Shown piece by piece: positions 13,244 through 36,557 of a stretch of DNA of 64,000 nt (its first letter is position 1; every line of letters begins with the position of its first letter). The notes beneath the pieces are model-generated. The model did no database searches. It had not been told where the DNA came from and was given only the letters and a program-made list of their open reading frames with translations. A program made the translations under genes and the position numbers. The DNA is from Chytriomyces cf. hyalinus JEL632 (lineage: Eukaryota; Chytridiomycota; Chytridiomycetes; Chytridiales; Chytriomycetaceae): positions 53,058-117,057 of the forward strand of contig JAIWWG010000091.1 in NCBI GenBank assembly GCA_025435555.1, written 5' to 3'.

Positions 13244-13392
13244 ATTATTCCCATTACCAATGTGGCAGATCTGTGAAATCGGCGGTCTGGTCGACAGCGC
13301 GTCAGCCACAGATTTCGCCGATGCGGACTTGCCGCCCTGGCGTTTTTTAAAACCCCGTTTTTTTGGTCTTCAAACACTACTAAAAAAGAAAG

Positions 13393-14203: not shown

Positions 14204-14209
14204 TGGTCG

Positions 14210-14850
14210 CTTGTTTCCCAGTTTCTATCGCGTCATGAATGAACATTTCCCAAATCCCTGGATCGAAGCTCTGCGCCGTCTTTTTATTGTCCATTTTTGG
14301 AATTTTCTTGACATGACACATGATTGGCAACAGTTGCCCAAAACATCTTAAGTTTATTTTCCCATTTTCAAAATCACGCCTGCACATATGACATTGTTGT
14401 CAAATCTCATCAGTTCGATAATCCGTCAAAAAGAACTGGCTGCGATAGTAGTCGGACGCGGCGGATGTCAGTCTGTGTCCGAGAGAGCTCGGCGTTGGCA
14501 TTGGCGGCAGCGCAGGTTGATTTGATTCAGGATCCACAGAGGGGGGTGAGTTAGGGATTTAAGAGACAAGTTTGGCGTGAAGGTACAAATGTTTGACCAG
14601 AATATTCTGACTAAAAGGAAGCAACAATGCTCCAACTGTGTCCACATCTTTGGTCTTATGAATCAGTGCGGACAAGAAGAAGATTCGTTAAAACCAAGTC
14701 TGAGTTTTTGGCCAGCGTTAACCGTTTTTGTCGCTTTGAATTTGGCAGTTGCGCTGTTGGCGAATATTTCTGTCTGAGCAAATGCCGGCGCAAAAGTATC
14801 AGTTGTTGTACGTATGAATTATGCTATTTAATGATTGACAGTCACACATT
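14210..14850. other. Interval without a firm gene
   Basis: A plus-strand stretch at about 14690-14777 could encode one hydrophobic helix (WPALTVFVALNLAVALLA) and then stops. A minus-strand stretch at about 14215-14390 contains CHMC and CHVKK but no complete metal-binding domain. Neither is supported enough to call. Confidence 0.4.
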
Positions 14851-14856
14851 CCACAT

Positions 14857-16140
14857 TCAACTGTGCGCAGTGTGAAACGCTCTCTGGTTGCCCGAATCCC
14901 TCTCATCCAATGCCACGTAGTCTCGGTGACCTCTTCCCTTCCGCCTCAGTCTTAACAGACAGTACCGCCCCAGCATCACCAACCCCACAGCAGCGACAGA
15001 TCCAGCAACAAGAACGATTGCCACTGTCGCTCCTGTAGACAGTGAAGCATTCCAAACAACGCCGCCCGTGCAGGTGGACACATCCAAGCCGGTGAAGCAG
15101 CGCAGATCTGAGACGCAGTCACTGTCAAAGCTGCATGGTTGGCCGCAGATTGTGTTCGCAGATGGCCACGATGTGCCGCACCGATTGCTGTATATTGACG
15201 ATGACATGTTCTTGGTTTGTAAACTTAAATTTTTAACGTACAACGTAAATGCAGTCGTTGACACGCTCTTGCGCCAATGTTGGTGTCGCGTACAGACAGG
15301 CCAGATAGATGGAAGCACCTCAACGAAGTGAATGCTGTTGCATCTGAACGCCGATCATCGAAAGCAGCCTGCGCGCATAAGACACTTCAATCTGCCGTCA
15401 CATCACATCAAGTATGCAGCCCTGTTTCGGGGCATTTTGTCTTTCAGTTGAATCCATTCGCATCGAATGTCTTTGAGGTGCCCATCGCACGCTTCCCGTA
15501 CCACTACACTCGAAAAATTATCGGAAGCATCGTCGACAGCAAAGAGGGCGCTGCGACATGGATTCCCTGTCCAGACTGTTTATATTCAAGAAACATCAAA
15601 CGCACCACTCTCGCCTTGCCTGTTTGGCAACCCAGTAGTCCCTTGCATTGTGCGTGAATGCCTCAGAATTTGACTGTGCCAGCGACTGCGGAAAACTCGC
15701 GAAACTTCTTTCAGCGTTCTTGGCGAATTCCTCGACCGACAGAACAACTGCTCGTAATCCTGCGAAATTGCGCAAAAGGAATTCGAGATTATCGGACACA
15801 CAATGCGAGAAAAATTGTCGCAATCAGGTCTGGTTTGCAGGGCGTTGGATCCCATGTTTATTCCTGGCGAGATCAGCAAAGGTCCATGTAGAATTCCATG
15901 TGTTTGTGGATTCCAAACTGCACCATTCGAATGCGAGTAAAAGTCTGATGCGCTGGGAATGCAGCCAACCACGCCACGGCAGCAGCGGGATACCTCGATA
16001 TCCGCCAGGACACCATATTCGATGGTACCCTTGAAGGGCATCCAGGCGGTGACTAGAGTCAGATACAGTGTGAGTGCCCTTCTTTGCTTCTGCACGAGCT
16101 TGTTTGTATATTGCTCAGGTGGGGAAAACTGATTCAACAA
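14857..16140 (-). CDS. Multi-exon Cys-rich membrane protein, unrecognised
   Basis: Several minus-strand blocks look coding and read in order. A hydrophobic start lies near 16060-16100 (LTLYLTLVTAWMPFKGTIEY). A helical block follows at about 15596-15823 (DNLEFLLRNFAGLRAVVLSV, ending ARDYWVAKQARREWC). A block at about 15405-15565 includes NPCRSALFAVDDASDNFSSV and DGHLKDIRCEWIQLKDK. The last block, 14857-15200, has CGTSWPSANTICGQPC, then a transmembrane helix (ATVAIVLVAGSVAAVGLVML) and a basic cytoplasmic tail RLRRKGRG. The CGxSWxxAxxxC...C pattern is a Cys module seen in chytrid surface proteins. Exon borders are unresolved and one join meets an in-frame TGA near 15330, so the gene may be broken. 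It could also be two genes. Confidence 0.4.
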
Positions 16141-16179
16141 CTATTGCAATGCATAATTGCCTCACCAGAGTACAATATT

Positions 16180-16500
16180 GCAGTCGATCCTGTGACTTTG
16201 CCCCCCCGAAAATCGAATCGGCTCTCTTTCCAAAAAAAGGCCTGTCCCAGTGGCTGCACCATTTGGATTGCCGTCTGTACCGAATGCTTCAACTCCTTGT
16301 CGGTTGCCCAGAGCCGTCTCTGCGGAGTCCACTCCCCCCCACCGTGTTGACTCCGCACAGGATCGCACTTCCATCGCCGGATAAGGTTGAACGGAGTTCG
16401 AGCATGCGCTGTGCAAGATCTCAACAGCTTTTGGAGTGTTTTGTTCACGAATTTTTTTTTGGTATTTATATTTATTAAAATATTTAATAAATTCTGTGAC
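16180..16500 (+). pseudogene. Family X fragment X0 (3' part)
   Basis: The plus strand reads RIALPSPDKVERS near 16360-16400, matching the conserved C-terminal motif of family X (KVPLPSPDxYERAFFAEEKY). After it come LLECFVHE and the AT-rich 3' tail ending TTTAATAAATTCTGT found after the other copies. The rest of the gene is absent or unrecognisable. Confidence 0.55.
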
Positions 16501-16599
16501 TTTTTTTGAGTGACGCCATTCCTGAGTCGATTGCAAATTCGGGCGCCGCATCTTCTTTTAAGCCATAACCAGCTGACTGACAACTCCCATCACACCAAG

Positions 16600-17326
16600 T
16601 CTGCTACTTTCGGAACTCAGACTTGCCACTGCCTGGACGGATCGTTGCCAACAGACATTGTATATGGGACATTCATCATTTGAACCTGGGTAACAATCAG
16701 TTTCTGGCCCTCTTTCTGTTGGAGTTGCATGCTCAATATTTGAACCCCGGCTACAATTTCTTTATTGCTGATCAACAAGCGCTGTCGTGATTGATATGAT
16801 TCGGGCCGACAATTGCGACATGCAACACTGTCATTTTCAGTGGACACAGTCTTACTTGGGAGGGGCTGGTGTTTCTTTTACGGCTAATGCAGCTCTCGCA
16901 ATTCTCGCGCGTTTATTGTTTTTGCACTAAGAAATAAAGTTATCGTTTTCGGTCACGCGATGAAACTCAGCTCTTTCACTGTTTGTGCGATATGAACGAG
17001 GAGGATTTTCTTTGCTTTGTAGGCCAAATGCATAGGCATACATGGATCGCGTGTCAAACAGCTGCAAAATAGAAAGACACAACCCCAGAATCAATACGAG
17101 GCAGTTGACCAATCTGTGAGTTTGTGTGCAAGGGTATTTGTCATCGACACTCAAAATGGGATGGGTCGTCAAAGAACGAAAATAACAAACTCAATGCGGC
17201 GTCACCCACCAGCAATAACTGCAGTCCTCGTATGCATCGTGGGATGTCGACAACGGTGTGGGCAATGCTGGATGCGTGGTGCGTTGCAGCCGACTGAACC
17301 TGTTGATATCTTTCTCAATTTTTTAA
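16600..17326. other. Interval with a fragment of repeat R
   Basis: No gene is supported. At about 17150-17270 the sequence (CTCAAAATGGGAT, then a CAGCAATAACTGCAGTCCTC-like stretch, GCATCGTGGGATGTCGACAACGG) matches the start of region R at 20745-20880 and 30070-30190. This shows a third, short copy of that repeat upstream of a family X fragment. Confidence 0.6.
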
Positions 17327-17940
17327 ACGTCCGAATTTGATTTCTCCTCATGTCCCATCTTCACACACTGTCATCCCACAGATTATTTTTCTCACGCGTT
17401 TCCACACAAGACCATCATCGTTTCTCGAGTTGAAATGTACACTCAATAAACCACAGATCCAAATCAATCATCATGTCTTCACCATTGACTATCTCCATCC
17501 CTCACCTCGCCGCAGGTCCGCTACTTTTCCACGTGATCGCCTCCAATGATTCCTGTTCCACTCATCAGCAGCCTTACTTGACCGCATCAGAGGTTCATCT
17601 TCTCCAACAAGGGTGCCAAGACGCAGTGCATCAACTGCCTCCAAGTCAAGCACGCCACCTGTCCAAGCCAATATGGCCGCTGAAGTGCGAGGTCTCATTA
17701 GCCGGGTCTCAGCGGCCCCGAGCTCTTCAACACCGTGTCGGCTGAACAGAGCTGTCGTCTGCAAAGTCCAGTCCCTCCCACTTCCATCACCGGACCAGGT
17801 TGAAAGGGTATTTTATTTTCGGAGCAAGTGCTTTGCTATGTGTCAGTATCTGAAAACAAACTGTCGAGTGCTTTTGGAGTGTTAACAGCTGATTCGTCCA
17901 TGTTTATTTTTTGGTATATTGATAAATTCTGTAACTTTGT
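17327..17940 (+). pseudogene. Family X fragment X1 (promoter, short exon, C-terminal piece)
   Basis: It begins with the ACGTCCGAAT box (17327-17336) shared with full copies and has an ATG at 17473 (MSSPLTIS). It then jumps to MAAEVRGLISRVSAAPSSST at 17673 and SLPLPSPDQVERVFYF at about 17772-17820, ending in a tail with GATAAATTCTGT. The transmembrane/coiled-coil exon and most of the Thr/Pro region are missing, so this is an internally deleted copy. Confidence 0.6.
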
Positions 17941-18063
17941 CCAGTTCGTGGTTTTATTTTCCTAATGTTCAACGCCAGAAGCCATCGCCCTGAGACGCGT
18001 AAGTTTTATCATATTTGAGCTTTTCCTATTTTGCATGACGTTTACTGATGATGTATTTGTAAT

Positions 18064-19662
18064 TTGAAGATTACCGAGCTCGAAGCCCGGGTTGATGTCC
18101 TGCAAGCAGAGAAACAAAACCGCAAGCGGAGAAACAAAACCGCAAGCGGAGAAACAAAACCGAATCAACAGCGCTTGTCGTGCCTGCCAAATGTCGACTC
18201 ATGCGGCTGCCATCCATTTTCCACAAGTGACCAACGACCCATTGGCCATGGTATCGTCTGCCACCCCGCAACCCAGTGCCCAACCCGCCGCTGCAGCCCC
18301 ATCAACGCCATCATGCAACGACACAACCGCTGCCAAGTCTGATCCATCAGGACTCATCGCTACTTCTGTCGCTACTCTCGCCACACTTGCCGCCAAGACC
18401 ACCCCAAAAGCCAGTGTCCAACCCGCCACTACAATCCAGTCGTCACCTGCTTTCATCGCTACAGCCACAACAACGTCCAACAAGCCACCGTCTACTACCG
18501 CTCCACCCACTTCCCAAACCGCCGCCACGACCTCGTTGAACCCATCATTCACCCAGACACCCACCCACAAGTCCAACGCAACGCCCACTGACACCACCAT
18601 TCCCATCGCAACTACCGCCACACTAGCCGCAAAGACCACCCCATACACTCATGCTCAAGTGGCACCTGCCGCTGAAGCGTGCTTTGGCCTAATTAACTGT
18701 CCGGCTTCAGCGGCAAGTGCCCAATCCGCCACCACAACCCAGTCGCCACCTACTTTTACCGCCACACCCTCAACAAAGTCAACCACGTCAACCACCAACA
18801 TCACTCCGGCCGCTGGAGCAACATGTGCCCTGATTAAGCGCGCTCCAGTGGCCGTTAGTCCATCTACACCAACACCTTTACCACGACCTGTCGCCACACC
18901 GTTCTTCACACCTGCCACATTCACCACAAAGCCCAGACCAATTGACGCCGTCCCGTCCGCCACGGTTGACTTCACCCCGGTCCAACAAGCCCAGCCCTCT
19001 CAGTCGATCCTGGGTGACTGCACCCTCCACACCGTCGCCATCAACACCAGCACAACCGCTCAACGCCACACCCACCGCCGCCAAGCCAGCCACACCTACA
19101 TCCAAGACAATCTACACACCTGACAAGTCGACCCTTGCCGCAGCAGCCATAATAGGTCTCATTAGCTGAGCTTCTGCGGGCAAGGGTCCATTCACGCCCA
19201 CAAAACTACCTGGACTTGACAAGACACCAGCCAGAACACCCTTCGCGACGCCAACCCGGTCCCTCGCGCAAGCCAGTCCCACCCCGGCCAATTTGACGCC
19301 GAGCAAGGTTCCGCTGCCGTCGCCAGACTGTTATGAGTGCGCGTTTTTCGCGGAGGAGAAATATTTTGCGAAACTGCCGTTCCCGAAGGTGCTACGTCCG
19401 CCGCCGGTGTGCAGACCGTGTGATGATGCGGTTGTGCACGCATTCGCCAAGGTGGTCGAACAACTGGTAATATTGATGTCTTTTTGCACGTGTGTTTTGC
19501 ATGCTGACGTTGTTGATGATTTAGAAGGCTCAGTTTATGGATCCAAAATCTCCTCGGCTCTAACGGAATCAGTTACCTCAAAACAAGCTGTTGATTGCGC
19601 AAGCATCGGCCTATATCCTTTTATGAACATTATATTTATCTTTTATATTTAATAAGTTCTGT
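18064..19662 (+). pseudogene. Family X copy A (nonsense and frameshift)
   Basis: The coiled-coil exon survives as ITELEARVDVLQAEKQNRK, followed by a tandem 20-mer. The long Thr/Pro/Ser/Ala exon contains AAEACFGLINCPASAAS and AAGATCALIKRAPVAVS, two of the family's repeated motifs. The frame changes near 18930-18945. After AAAAIIGLIS comes TGA (19167-19169) where copies B and C have CGA (Arg). The C-terminal motif KVPLPSPDCYECAFFAEEKY at 19308-19370 and the following block to VVHAFAKVVEQL are in good order, then a GTAATATTG donor and DLEGSVYGSK after the acceptor. The shared 3' tail follows at about 19610-19662. Product unknown. The family looks like a single-pass membrane protein with a low-complexity extracellular or cytosolic domain. 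Confidence 0.6.
18111..18162 (+). repeat. Tandem 20-bp repeat in copy A coiled-coil region
   Basis: The unit GAAACAAAACCGCAAGCGGA is present 2.6 times, perfectly. The number of bases is not a multiple of three per unit, so each unit is read in a different frame. It falls exactly where copy B encodes the heptad-rich segment. Confidence 0.9.
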
Positions 19663-19780
19663 ATCGGTTTAAACGGGGATTAAATGGTTCGAAGATTAGT
19701 TGTGGGGAATAAATCCAAGTCCCAATATGTAATCCGAATTGGTCTGTCCCCCGCCATTTCTCCACATATGCTCCACGTCT

Positions 19781-20700
19781 TCAGCCCCCACTCTCACACG
19801 CTCCCATCATCCACCCAAGAGCCCACACCAACTCAAGTGGCACTTGCCGCCGAAGCTCATGTCATCAGTCGACGCGCTTCGTTAGCCATTGCCCAATCCA
19901 CCGAATCCACTGCCACAACAAAAGTCCTCCCCATCACCATAAAACTTCCTAATTCCTTGTGGGATGTCAAACATTGCGTTTAGAACATGTTATACTTCCA
20001 CTCCCTTCTCTTCCCGCATACACACTGGGCCTCTCGCACGCGTCGTCAGATTTCTGAATGCCATAGATGGTGTTGGCACATGTTTTTTCACCCCGTGCTG
20101 GATAATACATGTCATCTTTGTTTTGATGTTCGGCTTGGGTACTTCTCCTCCATTTCTCCCTCCCCACTCTCACCTGCAGTCGCACCCACATTCACGCACT
20201 CCACTTTTGCCACAATACATTAACAATCCACACTGGCTGTTGTTGTCTAACATATTCTCTCTCATGTCCACAATAGATTGTCTCCTGCCTTGTCAGCTTC
20301 ATGCTGGTTCTGTCTTCAATTGGCATTGTCTTTTCTCTGTTGAATATGTGCTCCCTTGCTGCACTGAAGCAGGAAGTTATCTGCCTAAAGCATGAAAGAT
20401 CTTCGTTTGCTGCACCAAGACCACGCGACGCGCTGATCGAGACACTGATGCATGAAAGAGACGCTGCACGCGCCGAAGTCACCACCTTGACTCGCGTGAG
20501 TTTATTTTATTTGATCTTTTGTTTGCATGAAGTTGACTGAAAGTGTGATTTCATTTAAAAGCTTCTCAACCTCCATTCTCGAGCAGGTTGAGAAAAGTAA
20601 CCGCGCCCACGGAACTTGCCACGGACGCCAGAGTTCGACCCACGCCCCGTTGCCAGCTGGGGCGAGCGATTCTATCAGTCGCGGTCCGGCTGCGCAACGA
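19781..20700 (+). pseudogene. Family X fragment A' (truncated at repeat R)
   Basis: At 19781-19960 a stray motif piece reads VALAAEAHVISRRASLAIAQ. From about 19985 the sequence follows the long first intron of copy B, then an exon with a hydrophobic helix (MLVLSSIGIVFSLLNMC) and coiled coil (EVICLKHERSS, LIETLMHERDAARAEVTTL), an intron starting GTGAGT near 20495, and the beginning of the long exon (STHAPLPAGASDSISRGPA). There it stops: at about 20690 it fuses to repeat R. The same junction sequence (TGCGCAACGAGCC) occurs at about 30013. Confidence 0.6.
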
Positions 20701-21610
20701 GCCTCACATGATTTGCATTTGTCATCGCCAATTTTCAAGCACTCAAAATGGGATTTCGAGTTGAAATCAAAATAAGGGGGTTGTCAAAGCATGAAAATAT
20801 GCGGCGTCATCAGTTCCAGCAGCAGCAGCAACAGTCCTCACATGCGTCGTGGGTTATCGAAAACGGTGAGGGCAATGTTAAATGGATAGGTGAAGATTGC
20901 GTGGCCGGCGGCCTTGACATTCCGCTTACTCGATCCCTTCCACCACCAGAGAATTCCGCACTGATCCACGGGGCTTCCAGCAATACTTCGTCTTGCCTGC
21001 GAATCCAATACTTGCCCGAAATGCAATCAGATCCAATGAAGCCAAATCTATATCTGAGGACCTGAAAGCCGATGAATGATATGAAACAGACTTGGATGCA
21101 TGAATACCGAAGAATACCGAATGCGAAACCAGAAAAACCGTGTCTCCCCGAATGATGATCGAAAAAAATGACCCCAAATCCTTGCGTGGCAGCACGAAGT
21201 TGGCTCCCACCGAGCAGCGTTGGAGATGGAAGGACATTTGGAAATTTTTTGGAGCCGACGCTTGGGCCACAGTTATATTCGGATGCGCGACTCAAGAACG
21301 ACAAACTCGAAAAAGCACTGCAGAACAGATTCGGATTAGTGCTCCTTAAAATATTGACTCATGAATTGTGAGCCTGCTGAATCAGATGGGTGTCGGAATG
21401 GAACTCGGGAATGCGCGCCGGGTATGAATCGATGGGCAAAGAAGTCTCGATGCCCAAATGGCCTTCGAATTCTCAGCGCTGACGAATTCAGTCTCCCTCC
21501 GACGTGGCGTGTTGCTTTTGACTGAAGCTGTGGATGAGGTTCGTAATTTTTACGTTAAATTCAGGAGCGTTTAAACGTCCGAATTAGTTTGAATCCCGCT
21601 TTTTTCTCTC
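20690..21610 (+). repeat. Region R, copy 1 (with decayed coding remnants)
   Basis: Matches 30013-30935 over most of its length with many substitutions and small indels, and lies directly upstream of family X copy B as the other lies upstream of copy C. Plus-strand remnants look coding: KLEKALQNRFGLVLLKILTH at about 21307-21365 and MGVGMELGNARR plus SLRRGVLLLTEAVDEVRN at about 21390-21545. The latter parallel FELGNERLSESLG and NLDQRGVLQLILAVDDTR in the other copy. Frames are broken in both. Protein family not recognised. Confidence 0.65.
21575..21584 (+). promoter_or_regulatory. Shared upstream box ACGTCCGAAT of family X
   Basis: The same 10-mer occurs at 17327-17336 and 30873-30882, each upstream of a family X copy. 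In copies B and C it is followed by CCCGCT, a T-rich stretch and CTCTCAC before the start codon. It could be a promoter element or simply duplicated flank. Confidence 0.5.
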
Positions 21611-21622
21611 ACAAAAACAAAG

Positions 21623-23560
21623 ATGACTAACGAATACACCCAACTCATGTCTGTCCTCACCGCCGCTCTGGATGACTCCATAGTGGTAAGATGTATCCCT
21701 CTCCAACACCACCCCCTCCCACACATCTCTGGCATTGTTGTGATGTCGGATGCCGAATTACGCGTGGTCAACACGTCAAGTTCTCACTCCCATATTTGCG
21801 CCCGTGCGCTGGACCTCTTTCACGCATCGTCAGATTTCTGAATACTTGGGATGGCGGAGGCGGAGGCCTTTTCACCGTGTGCTGGATATATGTGTCATCT
21901 TTGTTTGGATGTTTGGCTTGGGCAACTCTCCCTCCATCCCTCCCTCCCCATTCTCATACACGCGCTGCACATCTTTTCTGGCTGTCTTTCTCTAACATGT
22001 TCTTTCTTGTATCCACATCAGATTGTCGCCTTCGCTGCCATCGTCGGACTTGGCTTGCTTGTCAATGCCGTCGCCGTCTTTGCGATTGGCCTTGCACTCT
22101 ACTGTTCGCACTGCCATCTCCAGCATGAGATTGCCTCCTTGAAGCGAGAAACACCAAAGTCATCCAACTCGCTCCTGGAGACTGTCACGCGTGAACGAGA
22201 CGCTTTGCGCGTCGAACTCGCGGCCCTTAGACGCGTGAGTTTACTCTGATTGAACTTATTTTATTTGCATGACGTATGCTGAACATGTGTTTTCATTTAG
22301 TCGACCCACGGACCATTGCCAGCCGGAGCAATCGATGCCATCAGTCGCGGTCCGTCTCCGATTAGTCCATCTACCCCAGCTCTGTCATCATTTCTCCACG
22401 TGACAAACATCCCGTCAGCCACGCCCCTGTCTGCCGCCCCGCAATCCACTGCCGAACCCGCCACCACTATCTCGTTGACCCCATCATTCACCAACACACC
22501 AACCGACAAGGCCAATCCAACAGAACTCACCGTCACTCCCACCATACCTGTCATCAACCCACAACCCGTTAATCAAGTGGCACTTGCCGCTGAAGCGCGC
22601 TTCGGCCTCATTAACTGTCCAGCTTTGGCGGCCAGTGCCCAATCCGCTACAACATCCCCTCAGTCACCCACATTTACCACCGCACCCACAACCAAGTCCA
22701 ACACGTCGACCACCAACACCACAATGGCCGCTGGAGCAAGACGCGCCCTCATTAAGCGCGCTCCGGCGGCCATCAGTCCATCCACACCGTCACCTTTACC
22801 AAGACCTACCGCCACCAACACCACCACAGCCGCTGGAGCAACATACGCCCTCATTAAGCGCGCTCCGGCGGGGGCAGTCGCCACCACCACCACCACCACC
22901 ACCACCACATCCACCACCAAACCCGCAGTCAAGACCAGCCCAGCCCAGTTCACTCCCTCGCATCCACCCCGGTTGAACTCGCCCCGGTCCAACAAGTCCA
23001 ACAAGCCCAGCCCACTTGGTCGATCCTGGGTGACTGCACCGTCCACACCATCACCACCACACGACGCCATACCCACCACTGTCAAACCTGCCACACCCAC
23101 CGCCGTCAAGCCAGCTACACCCACATCCAAGCCAACCTACACACCCGACAAGGCGACCCTTGCCGCAGCAGCCATCATAGGTCTCATTAGCCGAGGCTCT
23201 GCAGGCAAGGGTCCATTCACGCCCACAAAACTACCTGGACTTGACAAGACACCCGCCAGCAACACCCATCACAACGCCAAGCCGCACTCTCGCGCAAGCA
23301 AGCCATTTCACCGCCAATGTGACGCCGAGCAAGGTGCCGCTCCCATCACCAGACTCTTACGAACGCGCGTTTTTCGCGGAGGAGAAATACTTTTCCAAGC
23401 TCCAGTTCCCGAAGGCGCTCCGTCCGTTGCCAGTATTGAAACAGTACAACAGTGTGGCTGTACAAGCATTCGCCATGGTAGTGCAAGAGCTGGTAATATT
23501 GATATTTTTTTGCATGTTTACTTTGCATGCTGACACTGTCGATGATTTAGAAGGTTCGGT
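21623..23560 (+). pseudogene. Family X copy B (best preserved; C-terminal frameshift)
   Basis: Exon 1 21623-21685 (MTNEYTQLMSVLTAALDDSI). Intron 21686-22021 is long for this locus (336 nt). Exon 2 22022-22234 has a transmembrane helix (IVAFAAIVGLGLLVNAVAVF) and a heptad-like segment (LLETVTRERDALRVELAAL). Intron 22235-22300. Exon 3 from 22301 is about 400 codons, rich in Thr/Pro/Ser/Ala. It carries five copies of an Ala-rich motif around LISR/LINC/LIKR, then GKGPFTPTKLPGLDKTP. One extra C at about 23260 relative to copy A shifts the frame, so the conserved KVPLPSPDSYERAFFAEEKY (about 23331-23390) is out of frame and the protein would end at 23533. A GTAATATTG donor follows at 23493. Probably a single-pass membrane protein; function unknown. 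Confidence 0.6.
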
Positions 23561-23640
23561 TTAAAAGTTCAAAAGCGCATCAACTCCAACGGAATCAGTC
23601 ACCTCGCATCAGCTGTTGACTGTGCAAGCATCGGCCTATA

Positions 23641-23697
23641 TTTATCCTTTTTATGAACATTTTATTTATCTTTTATATTTAATAAATTCTGTAACGT
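23641..23697 (+). repeat. Shared 3' tail of family X copies
   Basis: ATCCTTTT, ATGAACATT, TTTATCTTTTATA and TTTAATAAATTCTGT recur after copies A (about 19614-19662), B (here) and C (about 32831-32885), and in shortened form after X0 and X1. It holds an AATAAA-like element (TTAATAAAT) and probably includes the polyadenylation signal. Confidence 0.65.
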
Positions 23698-23965
23698 CTT
23701 TGATTGGTTCAAACGTTCGTCGCTTCAACGTGCTTCAGAAAAAGCGCCTAGTGCGCGATTGTCGATTGCATTTTCATTCCTTAACAAATAGCGACTTTCT
23801 CTTTCACAAGCTTTTACCCACCTAACGTTCCATCGATTGTTCCACATCCGCAACGCATTTTGCTCGTGTATTCTTCTGTTCGTCACATTCATAAAATATA
23901 CAAGAAAGTTGCTGAAAACGCGACAAACCTGAAATTATTTTGCAAATAAGCACCATGAAATTTAT

Positions 23966-25843
23966 TCAGTTGACAGGGAGTTCCAAGACATACTGCTGCA
24001 GACCAGCAATTGAATACACAGGCTTCTGACCTGCCATTGCCACGAACTTTTGTTTGGTGAATTTCTGAAAACGATGTGGCGGCACAACAAAGAACAACTT
24101 GGGCTTTTTGAAGGAACGGCACACAAGTTTTAACATTGCCACTCCACGTATTGGATGTTCAGCACCAACAGTAAATTGAAACATTCACTGCGGGCTTAAT
24201 GAGTCGATCGCTGGGAAATTGTCATCATCAGATGGCTCATGATACTGCAGAATAGGCTTGTGTGGAATAGAATCCTTTCCAAAAGCAACGCGTACGCTAC
24301 CAAATTTATGCAACGTCAGGTTCGAAGTCTTGTTAGTCACCAAGTTGCGACATTTGGGTGTTCTGCCACCGGTAGAAAAAACACGGTGCCCATATATCTC
24401 AAACAAATGACGTGATATCTCATTTGGGCAACCGCCAAACATTTCTTTGAGGTTTGTTATCATTTGAGCTGCATGTTTCTCCCACAATTGTTCGCCAATG
24501 TAGTCGGAAGCAATGTCTACGCACTTGAATTGATATTGGCCATCATCAGAGACAATGACATGAAGGAATATTTTCGTGGGGTTCCCAATGTTGCGAACGC
24601 CTTTCACAGCGTCCACATCTGCCAGTGCGGCTTCCATTTTGTCAGGCGCTTTCGGCTGATTTGGATAGAAAATAGATCGCGCAACCCCACCGTATCTGCG
24701 GTACCGTTCGAGGACCGTAACCATAGGTAAAGTCAAGTAACAGCCATCGTGGCATGACTGCAGTTCAGCTGAAGCCCAAGTTGGAAAATACCATTCCATT
24801 GCTTTTCTTTGTTTGACAAACTCCTTGTAATGATCCGACCGAGGAGAAGCAATAAACAGAGAAACACATGATGACGGTGCAGGTTGGGAGTCACGCCCGT
24901 CGATAATGTAGAAGGTGTCTGGTTGTCGCACTATAACTTCGGCATCAAGTTTTGACTTTCCGACCACGGAGTACGTTTCCAAGTCATAGCATATGTAGGA
25001 GGAGCCAGCATGATAGAGAACTCGAATAGGTTTGAAACTCCGCGACGAAGAGGCAAGTAGGGAGGAAGAGGAGGCAGAAGTAGACGCACTTGGAGTTGCC
25101 ACCACTGGAAACGCATCCCGGTCCTTCAGCAAGCGATATAATATGTAGATGACGAAAAGCGACTTTCCAACTCCTGGAGTTCCAGAAATTCCAAAGCATT
25201 CCAGCCCTTGTCCAATTCTGTTCATGAGGAGAGCAAACACATCTTCGTAGCATTTTCGAACAAACAGCTTCTCAACCTTCTCCAGCGAATAGGGCATAAG
25301 CGCATGCGATGACGAGACGATGCAGCCATCCACTAACTCTGCGGTTCTGAAGGCTTTGAATTGGGCTGTCAGATCATCAAAGGTTGGCTTTTTGGAAGCG
25401 GGTTTCGTTGAATCCACGTCAGCAAAAAGCGCTCCTTCTGAATTGGTCAATACAGTGGCCCCGAATGAAACAGAACGTTCAGTGGGAGTTGGAAAGGAGA
25501 GCGTTGATTCAAAGAAGTCAAAAAGTAAAGGCAAAGGGAGCCACTCACCGTTGACGCCCTTCTTCGGCACGACGACAAACAGCGGCATATCCTCGCTCCC
25601 TCCTCCATCTCCAACCAGCGCACTGGCTTTGAGCGGTATCTTCGCAGTGATGTCGTCCTTGGTTGAGTAGACCTTCAACTGCGCAGCCACTCCTTCGATA
25701 ATCCTTTGATTCTCCTCCCACACTTTCTTTGTCAAGTGCGCCATGTTCGCATCAGTGCTCATAGACACGAGATACACACCGACACCGTCGAAGGCCGGCT
25801 GGCCTCCTTCGTCAACCAGAAGGTACCAAACATCTCGATTCAT
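23966..25843 (-). pseudogene. Crinkler (CRN) / RHS-type P-loop protein with in-frame TGA
   Basis: Start set at ATG 25841-25843 (MNRDVWYLLVDEGG). Residues 1-95 form a CRN-type header: a ubiquitin-like fold pattern ending in MPLFVVVP. A Walker A loop GTPGVGKS is at residues 221-228, a Walker B-like FYIIDGRD follows, and an effector/RHS-type C-terminal region comes last. The order is that of CRN-RHS proteins, known as secreted or nuclear effectors in oomycetes and chytrids and related to retrotransposon-hot-spot proteins. At 24185-24187 an in-frame TGA separates FPAIDSLSPQ from MFQFTVGAEHPI. Coding then continues in the same frame through FFVVPPHRFQ to YVLELPVN, stop at 23966. The join corresponds to a continuous stretch in the family, so nothing seems missing. 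An optional 111-nt intron (25438-25548, GTGAGT...TTCAG) lies after the header and keeps frame either way. Confidence 0.75.
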
Positions 25844-26440
25844 TTTTATGGGCGACAAATTTTTGCTTTTCGGAACAAAACCAAACAAACCACAGTCTCC
25901 CCTTCAATAACAACACTGTCACTACTGGAGCATCTTCATAGGTCGCGCCCGCTCTGGTAACAGCGCAGGTGTCCATCAAATACCGCATGTCAGAGTTGTC
26001 AGTCTCCTCCATTCCACACTGCAGTCCTTTTCCAGACTCGTGTGGGCTTGTTTCTTGGAGGGATGCGGTGGTGTGTATGGATCTGCATTACCTTATTGAT
26101 ACTTTCTTTTGGATACAAATGGCTAAACGGATTCTGCATGGTTGCAGTCAATGCACTCAGCAATGCTCTTTGTCCCACACTTCGCTCATCCCACTGCAAA
26201 AAACACCCTTGAATGGACCCTAGACCAGTTCAAGGTGTCCGAGTCACTGTTATTGAGTTTTTTGGTGAAAGAGTATTCTTTTATTCGTCCGAACATGCCG
26301 TGTTAAATACTCAAAATAAAGTCCGATAGAAATGTAATAAGAAAGACCGGTGGCTAATGAACAACAATAAAACAATCTCATGAACCACCCAAGTGCCGCC
26401 CAACAATCTCATGGGCGGTGGCTCTCAGCCGGGGACTTCA
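25844..26440. other. Intergenic between CRN gene and primase-helicase relic
   Basis: No coding region is supported. The only open frames are short and without domains. It would contain the CRN promoter. Confidence 0.5.
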
Positions 26441-26459
26441 ACAACTGTATCCAAACCTA

Positions 26460-29076
26460 TGCGAATTCTTGGCCATCCCCGACCACACTGCAACAAAGGT
26501 CAAAGCATATTTTGACTTTGACCTCAAGTTTGATTCTGAGGATCTTGCTCCATCAGAGAATGACAAGTATTGAATTGTCCAGGTGTTGATGTGCTCAGTG
26601 GCTTCTGCATTTGTGCCCAATCTGAACCACTCCCAAATTGTGGTGGCTTCTCGCCACTGCGCTTACGTACCTGACCGCAAGTTCAAGATCTCTTACCGAC
26701 TGTACGTTCTGGGCGGGTGGACAGCAATGAACGAACTGAGTTCCGTCATCAAGCACATTCAAGTCCATCCCGATTGTGTTGTGGATGTCAAAAACTACCT
26801 TCCCAACCCTCTGTTGGACACCTCCGTGTACTCGAAAGGAAGGAAGATGAACTGCTTGGGGAAATCTTAAACTGTCGAGGATCCTCGTCTTTTGCTCCCA
26901 TGCAGCGACAAGTTCCACCTGGAGGATTTCCTTATTCAGTACGTCCCGGACACTTAGCCTCAGTTGGCTTGGTCGACATCATTCTCCTTTTTTGGTCTGT
27001 TGTCGGTATCCGCGTTGCCGTTGTCGAGAACAAGTCACGCACCAGCGTCCGATGACAGGACTTACTTTGTCATCAGCAATGAGGACGACCTTGACGTCTT
27101 GAAACAACTTGAATTGCGTCCCAGGGAGTGTCTGGCATTCAAAAAATATGCCAAGGTGGGTCACCTTTTGCGTTTGTTCTTTGGCGGAAGTTAATTCGGT
27201 GCATTTTGGCAGTGCTACAGGTCAAATTGGATGACTTGTATTGTTTTCACTTGGAGCGCAAGCACACCAGCAACAGAGCGTTCCTGGTCATCTCGGCAAC
27301 TGCAGTGACTCAGAAGTCCTCAAGTCTGCACTGCGCCACCAATCTGGCGGCTACGTTCAAAACTGCAATTGGTGTGTTTCCCAGTGAATTTCGTGCTGTG
27401 GTTGCGCACCTTTTGCTTGAGGAATCGCAGGTGTCACATGAGTCTCCCTCAGAAGTGCAAATCAACCAGCCCAGCAACGCTTTGACCATCACAACGACAT
27501 ATTCCCGGGTTCCGCCCAACTTGAGTGTGTTCGCAAGGACAATATTTTGGTTTCCAAAGTGATGAAGGGCTCTACCAGAGACGTAATGGCTGATTTGGAC
27601 GGTATACTTCGTGTGAAGCATGATCCTTTTTGTAAAGGTACCCAGTATGCGCAGACATCGAGTCTAGGTCTGGTGATTGTGTGCGACGCGTGTGCGTTTA
27701 GGTTCCCCCAAAGGGAATCTGCCTTCATGGTGATCTCAGAGAAGCAGTTTCCATCCCTGTGTAGTTTTCTCGTTCAGGTCAACAACAATATCACCAACAT
27801 CACGGTCAACAACTACAATGCCGATTGATTGCAGTTGGACTTCAATTTGGTCATGTTCAAAAGTTTTAATGCCCGTGCAGGCGACATCTATCATAAGGGC
27901 AAAAACCTTTTTGGGGTAGTTCCTAAAAAGGGTGCAGTTGAATGGTGGGGTTGGGATACCAGGTTGACCAGGTGGACGGTAGAGAAGCATTTTGTCGAGT
28001 ACTTTTGCATGATGACCATGGTCGCATATTATGAGCAGGCGCAACAGTACTTTCGCTTACATATGGCCGACCCTACTCTCGCAAAGAACAGGGATATCCG
28101 CTTTGAGCAGATCTGCAAGCGTCTGAACGACTGTGAACTCGTTCATATTGTGCCGCCCACTGTAGGGAGCATGATCCAGACTTCAAAGATAAATTGGACG
28201 GGAATCCTGCTCTTATCGGTTTTACAAATGGTGTCTATGACCTCGATGCCAACGAGTTCCACCCCGCAAATCCTTCCGATTATATCACCATGTCCTGCGG
28301 ATACGCTTTTGAACGTGAAGTGAATCATGTCGTCAGGGCAGAAATCGACAAGTTTTTCGAAGACATTCAACCGCACGAAGACGTGCGGGTGGTCCAAAAA
28401 CACATGAATTGTTTCATATTTTCTCTGGAGAAACTCGTAACAGCAAGTCAGCTATCGCAGATGCCATGAAGTATGCCCTTGGCGACTATTTCACCACAAT
28501 CAAATCGACCCTTCTGACGGAGAAACAAGGCGCCAGTGCAGCAGCGTTGCCGGATTTGATGGACCTCATGAAACGTCGACTTGCCATTGCCAGTGAACCG
28601 GAGAAGGGGAAAACCATCAATACCGGATTCATGAAAAGGTTGACTGGAAATGACGATATTGTCGCTTGTCAGTTGTATGAAGAGATGGTCACTTTCAAAC
28701 CATCGCATGCTACAGGCCTCTTGACCAACGACATCCCTCCTATGGACCAGACGGATGCCGCGGTTAAGGCGCGGGTTGTGGTTGTTCCATTCCAAACCAC
28801 TTTTGTGGTGGTGGTAACACAGCCGAATCACCGCCTCATGGACGAACAACTGAAAAAAGGTCTCAAAAAGTGGGGGCCACAATTGATGTTGCATCTCATT
28901 GAGTGGCATACTTGGTATCGTTCCGAAGCTTGCGACCCAAGGCGCTGATGGACTCGACGGAATCGTATGCTCAAGAGAACAACATCCCTTACAGATGGTT
29001 CTTGACTTGCGCCACGGAAGACGAGACAGAGTGCATTCATCTCAGTAACATGTTTGAAAGGTTTGTCGAATGGTAG
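26460..29076 (+). pseudogene. D5-like primase-helicase relic (large-DNA-virus type)
   Basis: Ordered blocks match fused archaeo-eukaryotic-primase plus SF3-helicase proteins of the D5 family, best known from nucleocytoplasmic large DNA viruses. A primase DxD motif lies in AYFDFDLKF (about 26505-26531). KFKISYRLYVLGG and DTSVYSKGRKMN follow, then TVEDPRLLLPC...LEDFLIQYV. Next come a Cys-containing middle region, NPALIGFTNGVYDLD, the Walker A-like SGETRNSKSA (about 28418-28450), RRLAIASEPEKG, and a C-terminal NNIPYRWFLTC...LSNMFERFVEW ending at TAG about 29074-29076. It is multiply broken: TAA at 26868-26870 inside the primase, a stop after YVPDT, and frame changes near 28190, 28400 and 28945. 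Some breaks could be introns but not all. A non-functional endogenous viral element is the best reading. Confidence 0.8.
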
Positions 29077-29196
29077 CAAGAAACTGAAGGTCGCCCGTGA
29101 GATCAGGGCATTTGCCAAAGATCTCCTTAGTGAACACAGTCACAACAACTGAAAAGAAAATAAACCAAGGATAGAAATACCATGAAAAACACAACT

Positions 29197-29985
29197 CTAG
29201 TTCTTTTTGTTTTGCACCACCTGCCACGCAACCACTGCTGCAATGATAATCACAATCACCAAAATGATCCAGAAAATCATCCACTTGGTGCGTCGCGCGC
29301 TTGCCGCCTTCTTGTTGGCATCCGTAAGCTGCACAACACCCGCTTCAACGTTTCAAACAGTGTTGTCGACGAAGCGTTCAGAATCGTCGATCCATTCTTG
29401 TTGTTGCTGGGGGGGGGGGGGGGGGGGAATTCAAATTTTTGAAGATTAGTGGGAATAAGTCAAGTCCCTGTATGGAATCAAAACTCACGCTGATCATATC
29501 GCTCATTTCTTGCATGAGTTGCTGCAAAGCTCCCATGCTTTCAAGAACTTTGTTCAGTTCCTTTTGACGCTCCTGGACTGCGCTCAGCTGGCGTTGTTGA
29601 TCCGCGACACGCGAGGAAAGCATCATTTCCGCAAACACATCTCTTCCCGAATCCAACGCTGTGCAAAAGTTTAAAGTCAGCAAAGCCACGAAATTATCAT
29701 TCCCTAAATAGAATTTGGAACCTTCGTGAATCTCATGCTCCGACGCATTCGGTTTCGCAATCCTGTACTGCCGCGCAATCTGGTCCCGTTTCGACATTTT
29801 GATTTCATTCTGGACATTGAGAAAGCTTCCAGCCGCCGCTTGTAGCTTCTTTAAGCAAAACTCGTATCCCTTCCGAGTGTTTTTATCGGCCTTTCGAGAC
29901 TTTTGAAGAACTTTGAGAGCGTCGCGCGTTGCTTGGACAATGCTTGAAGTTTCGGTTATAAATGAATGACGGAGAATGGGAACCG
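29197..29985 (-). pseudogene. Truncated syntaxin duplicate
   Basis: A 5'-truncated copy of the syntaxin at 32972-34347. Exons equivalent to 3, 4 and 5 are present with the same splice sites (TETSSIVQATRDALKVL, SGRDVFAEMMLSS, WIDDSERFVDNTV), but exons 1-2 are missing and the sequence fuses to region R beyond about 29985. In the last exon CGA has become TGA (29353-29355). Its C-terminus, TKWMIFWIILVIVIII then VVAWQVVQNKKN and a stop at 29197-29199, looks like a normal SNARE anchor and differs in frame from that of the longer copy. The 3' splice site before the last exon contains a 19-base C tract. It abuts the viral relic on its other side. Confidence 0.8.
29409..29427 (+). repeat. 19-base G homopolymer
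   Basis: On the sense strand of the duplicated syntaxin this is a C19 run immediately before the AG acceptor of the last exon. The paralogue has only CCCC at the same place. Either a real expansion or an assembly artefact. Confidence 0.9.
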
Positions 29986-30012
29986 CGTCAAATAAAATTT
30001 CAAAGAAAACAA

Positions 30013-30935
30013 CTGCGCAACGAGCCATCGCAGTCAATCAAGCGTTGCTGATTCCAATTTTTAAGCACTCAAAATGGGGATGAGTTGAAATCAAAATAAG
30101 GGGCATGTCAAATAACAGACTCAAGCTCACCATCAGTTCCAGCTGCAGCTGCAGTCCTCAAATGCATCGTGGGACATCGACAACGGGGAGGGCAATGTTG
30201 AATTGATGGGTGAAGATTGAATGACCAACCGGCAGGTCTTGACTTTCTGTCGCTTACTCAATCCCTTCCACCACCAAGGCATTCCGCACTGATCCACGGA
30301 ACTTGCAATAGTTCGTCTTGCCTGCGAATTCAACGCATGTCCGTACTACAATTAGTCGCAATGAAGCCAAATCTGTATCAGATGAACTGAATACGGATGA
30401 ACTTCACGCATGAATACCGAATGCGAAAGGAGCAAAACCGTCACCCCCCGAATGAGCATTGAAGAAATGACGCCAAATCCTTGCGGAGCAGCAAGAAGTT
30501 GGCTCCCGCGAAGCAGCATTGGAGATGGAAGGACATTTCGAAATTTTATCCGAGTCACTGCTTGGGCCATTGTGATATTCGGATCCCATGAACTACAAAC
30601 TCGAAAATGCGCCGCAGAACAACTCGGAATACCGTTCCTCAGCATATTGGTTCATGAATTGTGGGAATGCTGAAGCAGGGATGCTGGATTCGAACTGGGG
30701 AATGAGCGACTGTCTGAATCGCTGGGCGAGGGGACTCTCGCATCAACGCTGAGAGGAATTCGAATTGTCAGCTCTGAAAAGTACAATCTCGACCAACGTG
30801 GCGTGTTGCAGCTGATTCTGGCTGTTGATGACACTCGAATTTCTTTCGCACAAATTTGGGGAACATTTTTCGACGTCCGAATAGATCCCGCTCTTTTTCT
30901 CTCACGAAAACAAAGTTGACCTGTCAATACGCGCA
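30013..30935 (+). repeat. Region R, copy 2
   Basis: Second full copy of region R, upstream of family X copy C. It begins at the TGCGCAACGAGCC junction also present at about 20690. It holds a plus-strand frame from about 30670 to 30920 with FELGNERLSESLG, TLRGIRIVSSEKYNLDQRGV and LQLILAVDDTRISF, the best-preserved piece of whatever gene R carried. An upstream part in the same frame (PFLSILVHELWEC) is cut off by a TGA. Confidence 0.65.
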
Positions 30936-30939
30936 AATC

Positions 30940-32755
30940 ATGTCTGCCCTCACTGCGAGCTTCATCAATGCACTGAACAACCCGATTCAGGTAAGACTTG
31001 TCCCTCTTCAACACCACCCTCCCTTCGCGTCTCTGGCAGTTGTTGTTACGCGTGGTCGACACGTCAAATCCCCGCTCCCATATCTTTGCGCATATGCCCT
31101 GGGTCTCTCTCAAGCGTCGTCAGCTTTCTGAAAGCCATGCAAGTCAACAGCTGAGGTCGTTTCACCCCGCGCGTAATACATGGGTAATCTTTGTTTGGAT
31201 GCTGTCGCTCAGCATCTCCTCCCCACCCCCTCTCATCCTCCGTCACATTCTCATGCACACGCTCTGCATCTGCCGCGATTCATTAAACTGCTGTTGTCTA
31301 TGTTCTCTCACCTGCCCACAGCAGATTATTTTCTGCATTGCCATGTTGGCACTTGTGCTGCACCTCCGACAGGAAATTCAGACCTTGAAGCAAGAACAGT
31401 CCTCAACCGCTGTGCTGAACACTGTTCAGAAGATCTTTCAGACGCTGCTGGAAGACCGAGACGAAGCGCGCGCCAAAGTCAGCATCAATTACCGCGCTCA
31501 ATGAGAAACTCACACGTGAAAGGGACGCCGCGCGTGTCGAAACTTCAACTGTGAGACGAGTGAGTTTATTTTACTTGATTTTGTTTGCAGATGATGTTTA
31601 CTGATAATTCATCTCTTATTATTTGCATAAAGCTTCTCCATGTCAAAGAACGCGCTGAGGTACTCCACAGCAAGAGAGTGACATCCAAAAACGGCGCTTG
31701 TCGCCTCTGCCCATCACCAACCCACCTTCCACTCACACACGGACCAAAAAACGATCTCATTAGTCGGGTCCCGGCTGCCATCAGTTCATGCATCACTACT
31801 CTGTCGTCATCGTCTCATGCCCCCCTCGTCCCATCTACACTGCCCGCCACCACCACAAAACCCACCATCAACCAAGTGGCACTGGCTGCCGAAGCTCATC
31901 AAGGTCTCATTAGCCGTCGAGTTTTGGTGGCCGGTGCCCAACCCGCCAGCACAACCCAGTCGCCCACCACTTTCACGGCCACACGCACAACCAAGTCCAA
32001 CACATCGACCATCAACATCACCACGGCCGCTGGAGCAACACGCGCCCTCATTAAGCACGCTCCAGGGGCCATCAGTCCATCTACACCCTCCCCTTTACCA
32101 AGACCAGTCGCCACCACCACCACCACCACATCCGCCTCCACACTCGCAGTCAAGACCAGCCCAGCTCGCATGACTCCCTCACGTCCGCCAAGGGTGAACT
32201 CGCCCCAGTCAAACACGCCCAACAAGCCCAGCCCCCTTGGTCGATCCTGGGTGACTGCACCATCCACGCCATCACTACCACACAACGCCACACCCACCGC
32301 CGTCAAGCCAGCCGCATCCGTGTCCAAGTCCACCTATACACCCGACAAGGCGACCCTTGCCGCTGCAGCAATCCTTGGTCTCATTAGCCGAGGTTCTGCA
32401 GGCAAGGGTCCGTTTACGTCATCGAAATTGCCCAAACTTGACAAGACGCCGGTCAAAACGCCGGCCGCAGCGCCAATTCGTACCAGTCATGCAAGCCAGC
32501 CGTATAGCAGCCAATGTGACACCGAGCAAGATAGCCGTTGCCGTCGCCAGACGCTCATGAGCGCGCGTTTTTTGCGGAAGAAAAGTACTTCTCGAAGCTG
32601 CCGTTCCCGAAGGCGTCACGTCCGTCCTCCGGTGTGCAGACCGTGTGACGATGCGGTTGTGTGTGCATACGCACAGGTGGTGAAAGAACTGGTAATATTG
32701 CTGTTTTTTGCAAGTGTGTTTTGCATGCTGACACTGCCTGATGAATAGAAAGCGC
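30940..32755 (+). pseudogene. Family X copy C (start shift, two compensating frameshifts)
   Basis: Where copy B has its ATG (after CAAAG), copy C has TTG; the next in-frame ATG (30940) gives MSALTASFINALNNPIQ. The first intron starts GTAAGACTTG. In exon 2 the hydrophobic segment is shorter (IIFCIAMLALVLHL) and the coiled coil reads EIQTLKQEQSS and KIFQTLLEDRDEARAKV. The long exon starts near 31633 and carries NDLISRVPAAIS, HQGLISRRVLVAG, RALIKHAPGAIS and ILGLISRGSAGKG. The C-terminal motif (PSPD.HERAFFAEEKY) is out of frame between about 32530 and 32625, then frame returns at PPVCRPCDDAVV, so a different protein segment would replace it. The shared 3' tail follows. Confidence 0.6.
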
Positions 32756-32971
32756 AGTTCAGGGATTCGAATCGCAGCAGCTGTGAAGAAAACTGATACT
32801 GAAACGAACGAAGCAGCGTTGATTGTGCTATATCCTTTTATGAACATTTTATTTATCTTTTATTTATATATTGAATAAATTCTGTGGCCACTTTATCGTG
32901 TCTTTTGCAAGCAGTCGGAAAAGGAACCTATGCGCGATCATTTCTTGAAATCATGTTTTTACGTTTCTCAT

Positions 32972-34347
32972 TCACAAGCATTTTACTGAGATCGTCACAA
33001 CAACTGAGGAACAAAAACTGGATAGAAATACCATCAAAAAAACACACACGACTCTAGTTACTTTTTGTTTTGCACCACCTGCCACGCGACAACAGCATGC
33101 AATGATGATCACAATCACCAAAATGATCCAGAAAATCATCCACTTGGTGCGTCGCGCGCTTGCCGCCTTCTTATTGGCATCCGTAAGCTGCACAACTCCC
33201 GCTTCAACGTTTCGAACAGTGTTGTCGACGAAACGTTCGGAATCGTCGATCCATTCTTGTTGTTGCTGGGGATTGAATCGTATTTTCAGATAATTTGTGG
33301 GAATTAAAGCCCCACTTTATCGAAAACTCACATTGATCATGTCACTCATTTCTTGCATGAGTTGCTGCAAAGCTCCCATGCTTTCAAGAACTTTGTTCAA
33401 TTCCTTTTGACGCTCCTGGACTGCGCTCAGCTGGCGTTGTTGATCCGCGACACGCGAGGAAAGCATCATTTCCGCAAACACATCTCTTCCCGAATCCAAC
33501 GCTGTGCAAAAGTTTAAAGTCAGCAAAAGCCACGAAATTATCATTCTGTAAATAGAATTTGGAACCTTCTTGAATCTCATGCTCCGACGCATTCGGTTTC
33601 GCAATCCTATACTGCCGCGCAATCTGGTCCCGTTTCGACATTTTGATTTCATTCTGGACATTGAGAAAGCTTCCAGCCGCCGCTTGTAGCTTCTTTAAGC
33701 AAAACTCGTATTGTCCCTTTCGAGTGTTTTTATCGCCCTTTCGAGACTTATGAAGCACTTTGAGAGCGTCGCGTGTTGCTTGGACAATGTTTGACGTTTC
33801 GGTTGTGAGTTCGTCCAATTGCGCTTTCAGTTCTTGATTTTTTTTGTTGTGAGGTTTTTTTTGAGTGGTGATAATTCACAGCGCTTGAACGACACACTCA
33901 CTGATTGTATTGTTCTGGTTCACTTCCTGAAGTACTCGGTTATTGAGTTGCTTAATGGCGGCAATGTTACTTTCGACTGTTGCAATGTACTGCGTGATCA
34001 AGTCTCTCTGTCTGTAAAACGTGTTCATGTCCAATGCCGGCGACAAGAGAACCACATCGGGTCTGAAAGGGCCATTCGATGCGGTGGGAGCGTTTGATGG
34101 CGGGTACTGCGTCGATGAGGAGGGCACGAATTGTTGTTGTTGTGAAACTTCGGATTGCCAGTTGTTATTGTTGTTGTTCGAGGCATTGCCCTAGTGTTTT
34201 CGATGCAGAGTGTGTTTGTCGGTTAGGGGTGTCGGCGTTGAATGGTTGATGCGAAGGGGTTCTCAAATTGGATGTTCGCAGGATCGCCCTCGTTGCAAAA
34301 GGAATGAGTAGTCTTACTTTGAAGGCGGCAGTTCTGTCTCGAGCCAC
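32972..34347 (-). CDS. Qa-SNARE (syntaxin), copy 2
   Basis: Five exons: 34318-34347, 33902-34190, 33566-33832, 33332-33501 and 32972-33265, 349 aa. The Asn/Gln-rich N-terminus is followed by helical Habc-like regions (DMNTFYRQRDLITQYIATVE; AQLDELTTETSNIVQATRDA). The SNARE motif runs from RQKELNKVLESMGALQQLM to RFVDNTVRNVEAGVVQL and ends in a membrane anchor (WMIFWIILVIVIIIACCC). The 30-nt first exon has GTG at the position where the 37 kb paralogue has ATG (ARDRTAAFK versus AKDRLSNIR). A one-base insertion near 33083-33095, relative to the truncated copy, replaces the short normal end by a longer Cys-rich tail. Syntaxins drive membrane fusion at the plasma membrane or Golgi/endosomes. May be impaired as sequenced. 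Confidence 0.75.
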
Positions 34348-36438: not shown

Positions 36439-36557
36439 GTGTGTGTGATGAGTGTGGCTGGAATGATGAGTAAATGTGCCGCTCAAGGTGCCAAGCCCAA
36501 TTGAATGTCGGACCCTGATTTTATCCAAAGTTTTCTGAAGCTCCGTCACAAAAGAAA

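Follow-up and report, generated by a model that had tools for sequence, protein, structure and literature searches.

A stretch of 64,000 nucleotides from Chytriomyces cf. hyalinus JEL632 (contig C234:53058-117057; hereafter the window, meaning the whole stretch that was analysed) carries several copies of a gene family whose predicted proteins join a membrane helix and a coiled coil to a long tail with a recurrent alanine-rich motif. The question raised by this locus is what kind of family this is, and which of its parts evolution has kept. The account that we consider probable is that of a superfamily so far confined to Chytriomyces, evolving by birth and death, in which a conserved 5' module precedes a faster-changing coding body and whose proteins may act as multivalent membrane anchors. 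The conserved promoter/intron-1 module is a stronger oddity than the persistence of the alanine-rich motif; a 5' module better conserved than much of the protein inverts the usual order.

Protein searches together with a conserved box of the first intron located about 25 family places in the genome, on 15 contigs: C234, C238, C47, C87, C85, C27 (two), C61, C26 (two), C59, C204 (two), C223 (two), C232, C115, C183 and C169. This number is a lower bound in which many places are pieces and some may be alleles, and the assembly may hold both haplotypes. With the proteins of C. hyalinus isolates included, they form one superfamily of four branches:

X1: C-terminal YERAFFAEEKY
X2: C-terminal KVEKAFFSEK
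X3: the C27 type, C-terminal ..KREPSTLLSNPKLHKLLRNP..
X4: PLPPPDxxEExFF and a helical domain

The 19 protein-database matches listed (P0001-P0019) are all named Chytriomyces, and no relative outside the genus appeared among the about 8,000 candidates scored per search, where low-complexity words may have crowded out distant kin. In Pfam no profile matched over the cut-off, family members giving sub-threshold matches only; no PDB sequence matched over threshold (best E values 0.16 and 0.037), Foldseek returned no PDB fold at E<=0.001 for a query that was itself a weak model, and no paper describing the family was found in the open-licence literature. An earlier note on this DNA had known of no family with the motif, and neither Pfam, the PDB sequences nor this literature described one; nor did the motif match an existing Pfam or PDB domain over the cut-off. 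Early-diverging fungi have many genes whose role is not known, and this family offers about 25 copies or pieces, intact-looking and broken, in a single genome.

The gene plan was read from donor and acceptor sites in two of the window copies (E and F, listed below), in the C238 copy, in a tandem pair on C27 (C27a and C27b) and partly in X4 loci. A short, hydrophobic exon 1 of 39-78 nucleotides (nt) is followed by an intron 1 of 334-400 nt (13 introns, the one of 400 nt being that of C232, a decayed copy), an exon 2 of 171-327 nt (10 genes) encoding a hydrophobic helix and a coiled coil, an intron 2 of 66-81 nt (E, F, C238 and C27b) and a long exon 3, which encodes a CxxC and a disordered Thr/Pro/Ser/Ala tail with the Ala-rich [LP]I[SN]R motif. 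A PLP[PS]PDxxExxFF box lies near the C terminus and is not in branch X3, and X4 genes have after exon 3 a fourth exon coding a helical C-terminal stretch. The plan is supported by the C223b gene, since its spliced protein, assembled before any model was seen, equals the NCBI model P0016 letter for letter. In one X4 copy (L069, on C115), exon-2-like sequence was seen by eye closely after exon 1, as though through loss of intron 1 or a local rearrangement. An AlphaFold2 model from 12 alignment rows (mean predicted local distance difference test score, pLDDT, 52.2; predicted template modelling score, pTM, 0.26) places helices at 2-18 and 23-39 (membrane) and at 55-77 and 79-125 (coiled coil), has low confidence across most of 132-361, puts a short helix (365-375) over the EDEEEFF residues of the C-terminal box, which spans 358-371, and gives helices within 396-481 (block pLDDT about 57-83).

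When ten family proteins were compared with the whole window by tblastn, 79 high-scoring segment pairs in seven clusters were obtained, all on the + strand and inside 16286-32738. They correspond to six family copies (A-F) and one stray exon fragment, each truncated or frame-damaged, and the proteins encoded in the window match NCBI models of strain JEL632:

16286..16397, +: copy A, C-terminal fragment with a short-branch PLPSPDxVER-type box and internal frame changes (tblastn, open reading frame)
17562..17858, +: copy B, 3' part of exon 3 with LISR motif and PLPSPDQVER box (tblastn, open reading frame 17550-17885)
18068..19652, +: copy C, exon 3 only, with CxxC, motif units, KVPLPSPDCYECAFFAEEKY and 3' tail (tblastn, gene model P0009)
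19723..19938, +: stray exon-3 fragment, one ALAAEA..ISR motif unit, directly upstream of copy D (tblastn)
20034..20742, +: copy D, second half of intron 1 (box 20034-20058), exon 2 from 20277 and start of exon 3, without exon 1
21647..21685, +: copy E exon 1, 39 nt
21686..22021, +: copy E intron 1, 336 nt, conserved module, box 21818-21842
22022..22234, +: copy E exon 2, membrane helix and coiled coil
22301..23560, +: copy E exon 3, five motif units and C-terminal box (gene model P0005)
30740..30939, +: copy F 5' flank, shared upstream box (GTCCGAAT ... CTCTCACGAAAACAAA)
30940..30990, +: copy F exon 1, 51 nt
30991..31324, +: copy F intron 1, 334 nt, box 31108-31132
31325..31559, +: copy F exon 2, membrane helix and coiled coil, frame change within
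31633..32738, +: copy F exon 3, motif units, frame change, TAG near the C-terminal box (gene model P0002)

The tblastn clusters span 18443-19508 for copy C, 19723-20124 and 20277-20742 for the stray exon-3 piece and copy D, 21647-23537 for copy E and 30916-32738 for copy F, and the second introns measure 66 nt in E and 73 nt in F. The window copies are dying or truncated family members, because the frame lesions of C include an in-frame TGA, F has a TAG and frame changes, exon 3 of E changes frame near 23241-23254, and A has frame changes too. The earlier note had given the six full or partial copies one plan; this is whole in E and F, where the short exon 1, the long first intron and the membrane/coiled-coil exon are read directly, but A and B comprise just C-terminal pieces, C consists of exon 3 alone and D lacks exon 1. 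The C-terminal KVPLPSPDxYERAFFAEEKY block that it ascribed to them is found in E (KVPLPSPDSYERAFFAEEKY) and as variants elsewhere, with YECAFF in C, HERAFF in another frame of the DNA of F, and the PLPSPDxVER type in A and B; the shared upstream box and shared 3' tail were both confirmed. Outside the window, copy F is matched by C238 at 94.2% (window 30564-33506), copy B by a counterpart at C47:7561-7821, and the segment of copy A by an inverted near-copy on C85 (window 14431-16426, 94.4%).

The evidence for a conserved 5' module comes from comparisons between branches. Between groups, intron 1 has a mean identity of 0.61 and exon 2 of 0.49 (0.43 and 0.44 when shuffled), and intron 1 was the more identical in 37 of 40 between-group pairs from 10 genes, pairs that are not independent and for which C238 and E were counted as two groups and X4 as three; C61/C204a, C27b/C26a and C238/C26b were the exceptions. 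The intron-1 box, TCTCACGCGTCRTCAGNTTTSTGAA, which is nearly fixed across branches, was found at 14 places with <=3 mismatches and at none for the reversed control. The ACGCGTCRTCAGCTTTCTGAA box is part of the same promoter/exon 1/intron 1 module; in fungi, ACGCGT is known as the MluI cell-cycle box. Over the 200 nt of the 5' flank, copy F and C238 are identical at 193/200 positions, and other branch pairs at 60-65%.

Exchange between copies has also left traces. Between C27a and C27b, identity is 98% over 200 nt of 5' flank; introns 1 and 2 reach 92% and 93%, exons 2 and 3 only 77% and 72%, with a synonymous divergence (dS) in the exons of about 0.56. In sliding windows the stretch between about -280 and about +440 stands out at 86-100%, against 66-84% before it and 36-93% after it, where intron 2 accounts for the 93%. 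The C61 copy resembles C27b at 95-100% in windows between -700 and +20 but C27a at 91-100% between +920 and about +1500, and its intron 2 is just 61-66% like that of either. These mosaic tracts in branch X3 are the product of gene conversion or unequal exchange. Across 10 genes, the trees of intron 1 and of the protein give the same branch-level groups, only C204a being placed differently, so that no wholesale exchange between branches is apparent. The data do not support positive selection as what makes exons outpace introns, since synonymous divergence of the exons is also high and the ratio of nonsynonymous to synonymous divergence (dN/dS) is below 1, at 0.33-0.61, in the computable older pairs. 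The older coding pairs are under moderate purifying selection; for exons 2 and 3 of C27a/C27b the ratio is 0.56 (bootstrap 0.43-0.72).

With respect to the motif, 42 distinct instances aligned on I read A-x-A-A-[AE]-[AG]-x-x-[GD]-[LP]-I-[SN]-R-x-[SAP]-[AS]-[AV]. The strict pattern ([LPV]I[SNK] with >=2 Ala in the preceding 11 residues) occurs 47 times in 16 proteins, 2 to 6 times in each, against a mean of 5.9 and a maximum of 13 in 500 block shuffles, these proteins being related and the instances thus not independent; LI[SNK] alone occurs 43 times (mean 4.3, maximum 12 in block shuffles). The recurrence described in the earlier note is thereby confirmed. Motif, CxxC and C-terminal box were then compared with the linkers, with near-gap codons removed and the first member of each pair defining the mask. 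The proportion of nonsynonymous differences (pN) was low in the motif in four of seven pairs: C27a/C27b (0.112 vs 0.291 in linkers; 1/305 circular shifts as low), C223b/C26a (0.037 vs 0.123; 5/286), C223b/C115 (0.172 vs 0.388; 5/232) and C204a/C223b (0.186 vs 0.483; 1/201). No clear difference was found in C238/copy F (3.0/126 in the motif, 15.0/463 in linkers; 117/271), C238/copy E (55/216) and C59/C26b (130/262). When synonymous differences (pS) were taken into account, as the earlier note had proposed, the motif had clearly lower pN/pS in two deep pairs (0.35 and 0.37 vs 0.67 and 0.80 in linkers), but in four closer pairs pooled the values were alike, 0.54 and 0.60, because the motif is conserved at its synonymous sites as well. 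In the Thr/Pro/Ser linkers, both dN/dS and identity rest on uncertain alignment. The motif also survives in X4, whose linkers barely align with those of other branches. We read these comparisons as long-term constraint on the protein motif, blurred in young pairs by DNA-level processes. Its persistence in the decayed window copies, which had been taken as a hint of selection, is no such sign, because those copies are young and C238/F gives no clear difference between motif and linkers. The dN/dS of C238/F is 1.05 (0.63-1.86) over a stretch running beyond the frame change of F; without that part, pN/pS is about 0.69 (18.0/589 over 10.0/227).

What the proteins may do is suggested by their tails, which are basic in the 8 proteins examined (isoelectric point, pI, 9.2-11.1), and by sites resembling the SxIP motif of proteins that bind end-binding (EB) proteins. 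Among 16 proteins there are 21 instances of the pattern [ST][KR][ILM]P, where 1000 block shuffles gave 2.1 and at most 8; they fall in X1, X2 and X4, with a single one in X3 (P0010). Examples are RSRIPVP and TPSRLPKL in X4 and TPTKLP and TPSKIP in X1, and RSRIP[IV]P is retained in P0016-P0019. The EB1 homology domain (PF03271) passed the cut-off at six genome places (C203, C222, C188, C221, C210 and C57); three matches span nearly the whole model, one of them with stops in frame, and the other three are short. The C203 and C222 matches score alike and may be alleles. Together, the basic tails, the SxIP-like sites and the genomic EB1-homology domains favour a multivalent cytosolic membrane anchor. 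In such a protein, one or two membrane helices would be followed by the coiled coil, which may make dimers, the CxxC and a disordered basic tail, to which X4 would add its helical C-terminal domain; the tail would lie in the cytosol and its repeated short motifs would bind a partner, most likely of the cytoskeleton, through the SxIP-like sites of X1, X2 and X4. An EB protein is thus the leading but unproven candidate for this putative partner. On the gene side, the 5' module (promoter box, short hydrophobic exon 1 and first intron with fixed boxes) would be kept by selection on expression or splicing signals together with local gene conversion.

These data raise the question whether selection maintains intron 1 for a regulatory function or conversion keeps its copies similar. 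That ongoing conversion among paralogues is the sole cause, with intron 1 having no function of its own, is a possibility of some weight that we nevertheless doubt: the C27a/C27b tract and the C61 mosaic speak for it, but the intron-1 box is nearly fixed across branches between which no wholesale exchange is seen. Purifying selection on DNA or on a splicing signal is the simplest reading of this conservation. A structured non-coding RNA within intron 1, for instance a small nucleolar RNA, would suit strong intronic conservation in box-like blocks, but it was rejected and seems to us scarcely credible, as RNAalifold found 0 conserved pairs in 12 introns and Rfam, searched at gathering threshold with 6 loci, gave two transfer RNAs (tRNAs) and nothing else; at E<=5 (5 loci) it gave a sub-threshold tRNA and a sub-threshold SNORD66, the latter on the opposite strand, just outside the intron of locus L060. 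It is also highly improbable that the units are mobile elements spread by transposition, as their dispersal over 15 contigs and many truncated copies might suggest, given that introns are retained in the copies read, that some copies travel with their neighbours (C238 and F are both accompanied by a syntaxin stretch, and window 13375-16426 recurs on C85), and that no inverted repeats >=60 nt were found in window 10000-40000.

For the protein, we consider it rather unlikely that exon 1 is a signal peptide and the coiled coil a stalk bearing an O-glycosylated, mucin-like Thr/Ser/Pro ectodomain for attachment or recognition. The composition of the tails (8-17% Thr, 7-13% Ser and 7-16% Pro in 8 proteins) would fit such a domain, exon 1 of X4 resembles a signal peptide by eye, and rapid evolution with copy turnover suits surface proteins; a second hydrophobic helix, however, comes immediately after the first, the tails are basic, and CxxC with Arg/Lys short linear motifs would fit a cytosolic tail better. 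Several results count against the multivalent anchor with its conserved module and motif. The [ST][KR][ILM]P site is absent from 6 of 16 proteins (P0008, P0011-P0015) and hence does not define the family, its counts are drawn from related proteins, and the looser [ST]x[ILM]P gave 36 against 20.9, with a shuffle maximum of 35. The net charge of the 15 residues past the second helix spans -2 to +3 (helix mis-assigned in P0007 and P0004), so that the positive-inside signal is weak, and the overall quality of the AlphaFold2 model, at the scores given above, is poor. Likewise, the motif was not clearly slower than the linkers in three of the seven pairs, its pS was lowered too in most close pairs, and a shorter intron-1 box with 2 mismatches gave 21 matches against 4 for the reversed control. 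A bolder version of the anchor, in which expanding membrane-to-microtubule-end tethers carry LISR and SxIP arrays and one promoter/exon 1/intron 1 cassette both regulates them and anchors tail-shuffling recombination, we regard as a decidedly long shot.

Further features lie around the window copies. At 24185-25903 (-) lies a long open reading frame with sub-threshold Crinkler (CRN) N-terminal (E 0.021) and retrotransposon hot spot (RHS) P-loop (E 0.0022) matches, thus CRN/RHS-like, and at 27829-28948 (+) two overlapping frames, the second with sub-threshold DUF5906 (E 0.011), which by eye recall a viral-type primase/helicase, perhaps an old insertion. Two syntaxin-like copies at 29042-30037 and 32972-34190 (-) are 92-98% alike over repeated blocks, with a SNARE domain at 32972-33316 (E 3.4e-12), and the syntaxin stretch adjoining copy F recurs beside the C238 copy. 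Window 16722-20083 is colinear with C47:1-8657 at 94-98%, C47 carrying about 5.3 kb extra at window 18431-18436 (the B/C junction), partly like window 7766-8801; C47 is either an allele of the window or a duplicate with a deletion or insertion at that junction. Window 13375-16426, including copy A, has its inverted near-copy on C85 in two blocks at 94-98%, and 36012-37293 holds a direct tandem duplication (blocks of 261 and 149 nt, 75-81%, spacing about 860).

In mode of evolution, the family recalls the BEX/WEX/GASP genes (BGW element) of placental mammals, which are described as fast-evolving lineage-specific paralogues with a 5' non-coding element better conserved than the protein and with mosaic tracts ascribed to gene conversion (PMC1274310). 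The Chytriomyces family likewise has a 5' element conserved over divergent proteins (the 37/40 pairs and the box) and mosaic tracts. The mammalian element lies in exons of the 5' untranslated region and has a history separate from that of the coding part, whereas the Chytriomyces module extends over promoter, exon 1 and intron 1, includes some coding sequence, and has intron-1 and protein trees that are mostly congruent, the C61 mosaic apart. If the SxIP-like sites work, the family would provide a lineage-specific tie between membrane and microtubule ends in a zoospore-forming fungus. STIM1 is a membrane example of the microtubule plus-end tracking proteins (+TIPs) with an SxIP motif. By a published definition, SxIP-motif +TIPs bind EB1 (PMC12695022). 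As in these proteins, [ST]x[IL]P sites stand in a disordered, basic tail beside a coiled coil in members of X1 and X4; unlike them, the family does not have the putative sites in all branches, and no homology to a known +TIP was detected. Lineage-specific multigene families of membrane/coiled-coil proteins also occur in parasites and fungi. With these the family of Chytriomyces, which we take to be a free-living saprotroph, shares birth and death, pseudogenes and a variable tail, but in contrast to them the variable part of its protein looks like a cytosolic tail of short motifs.

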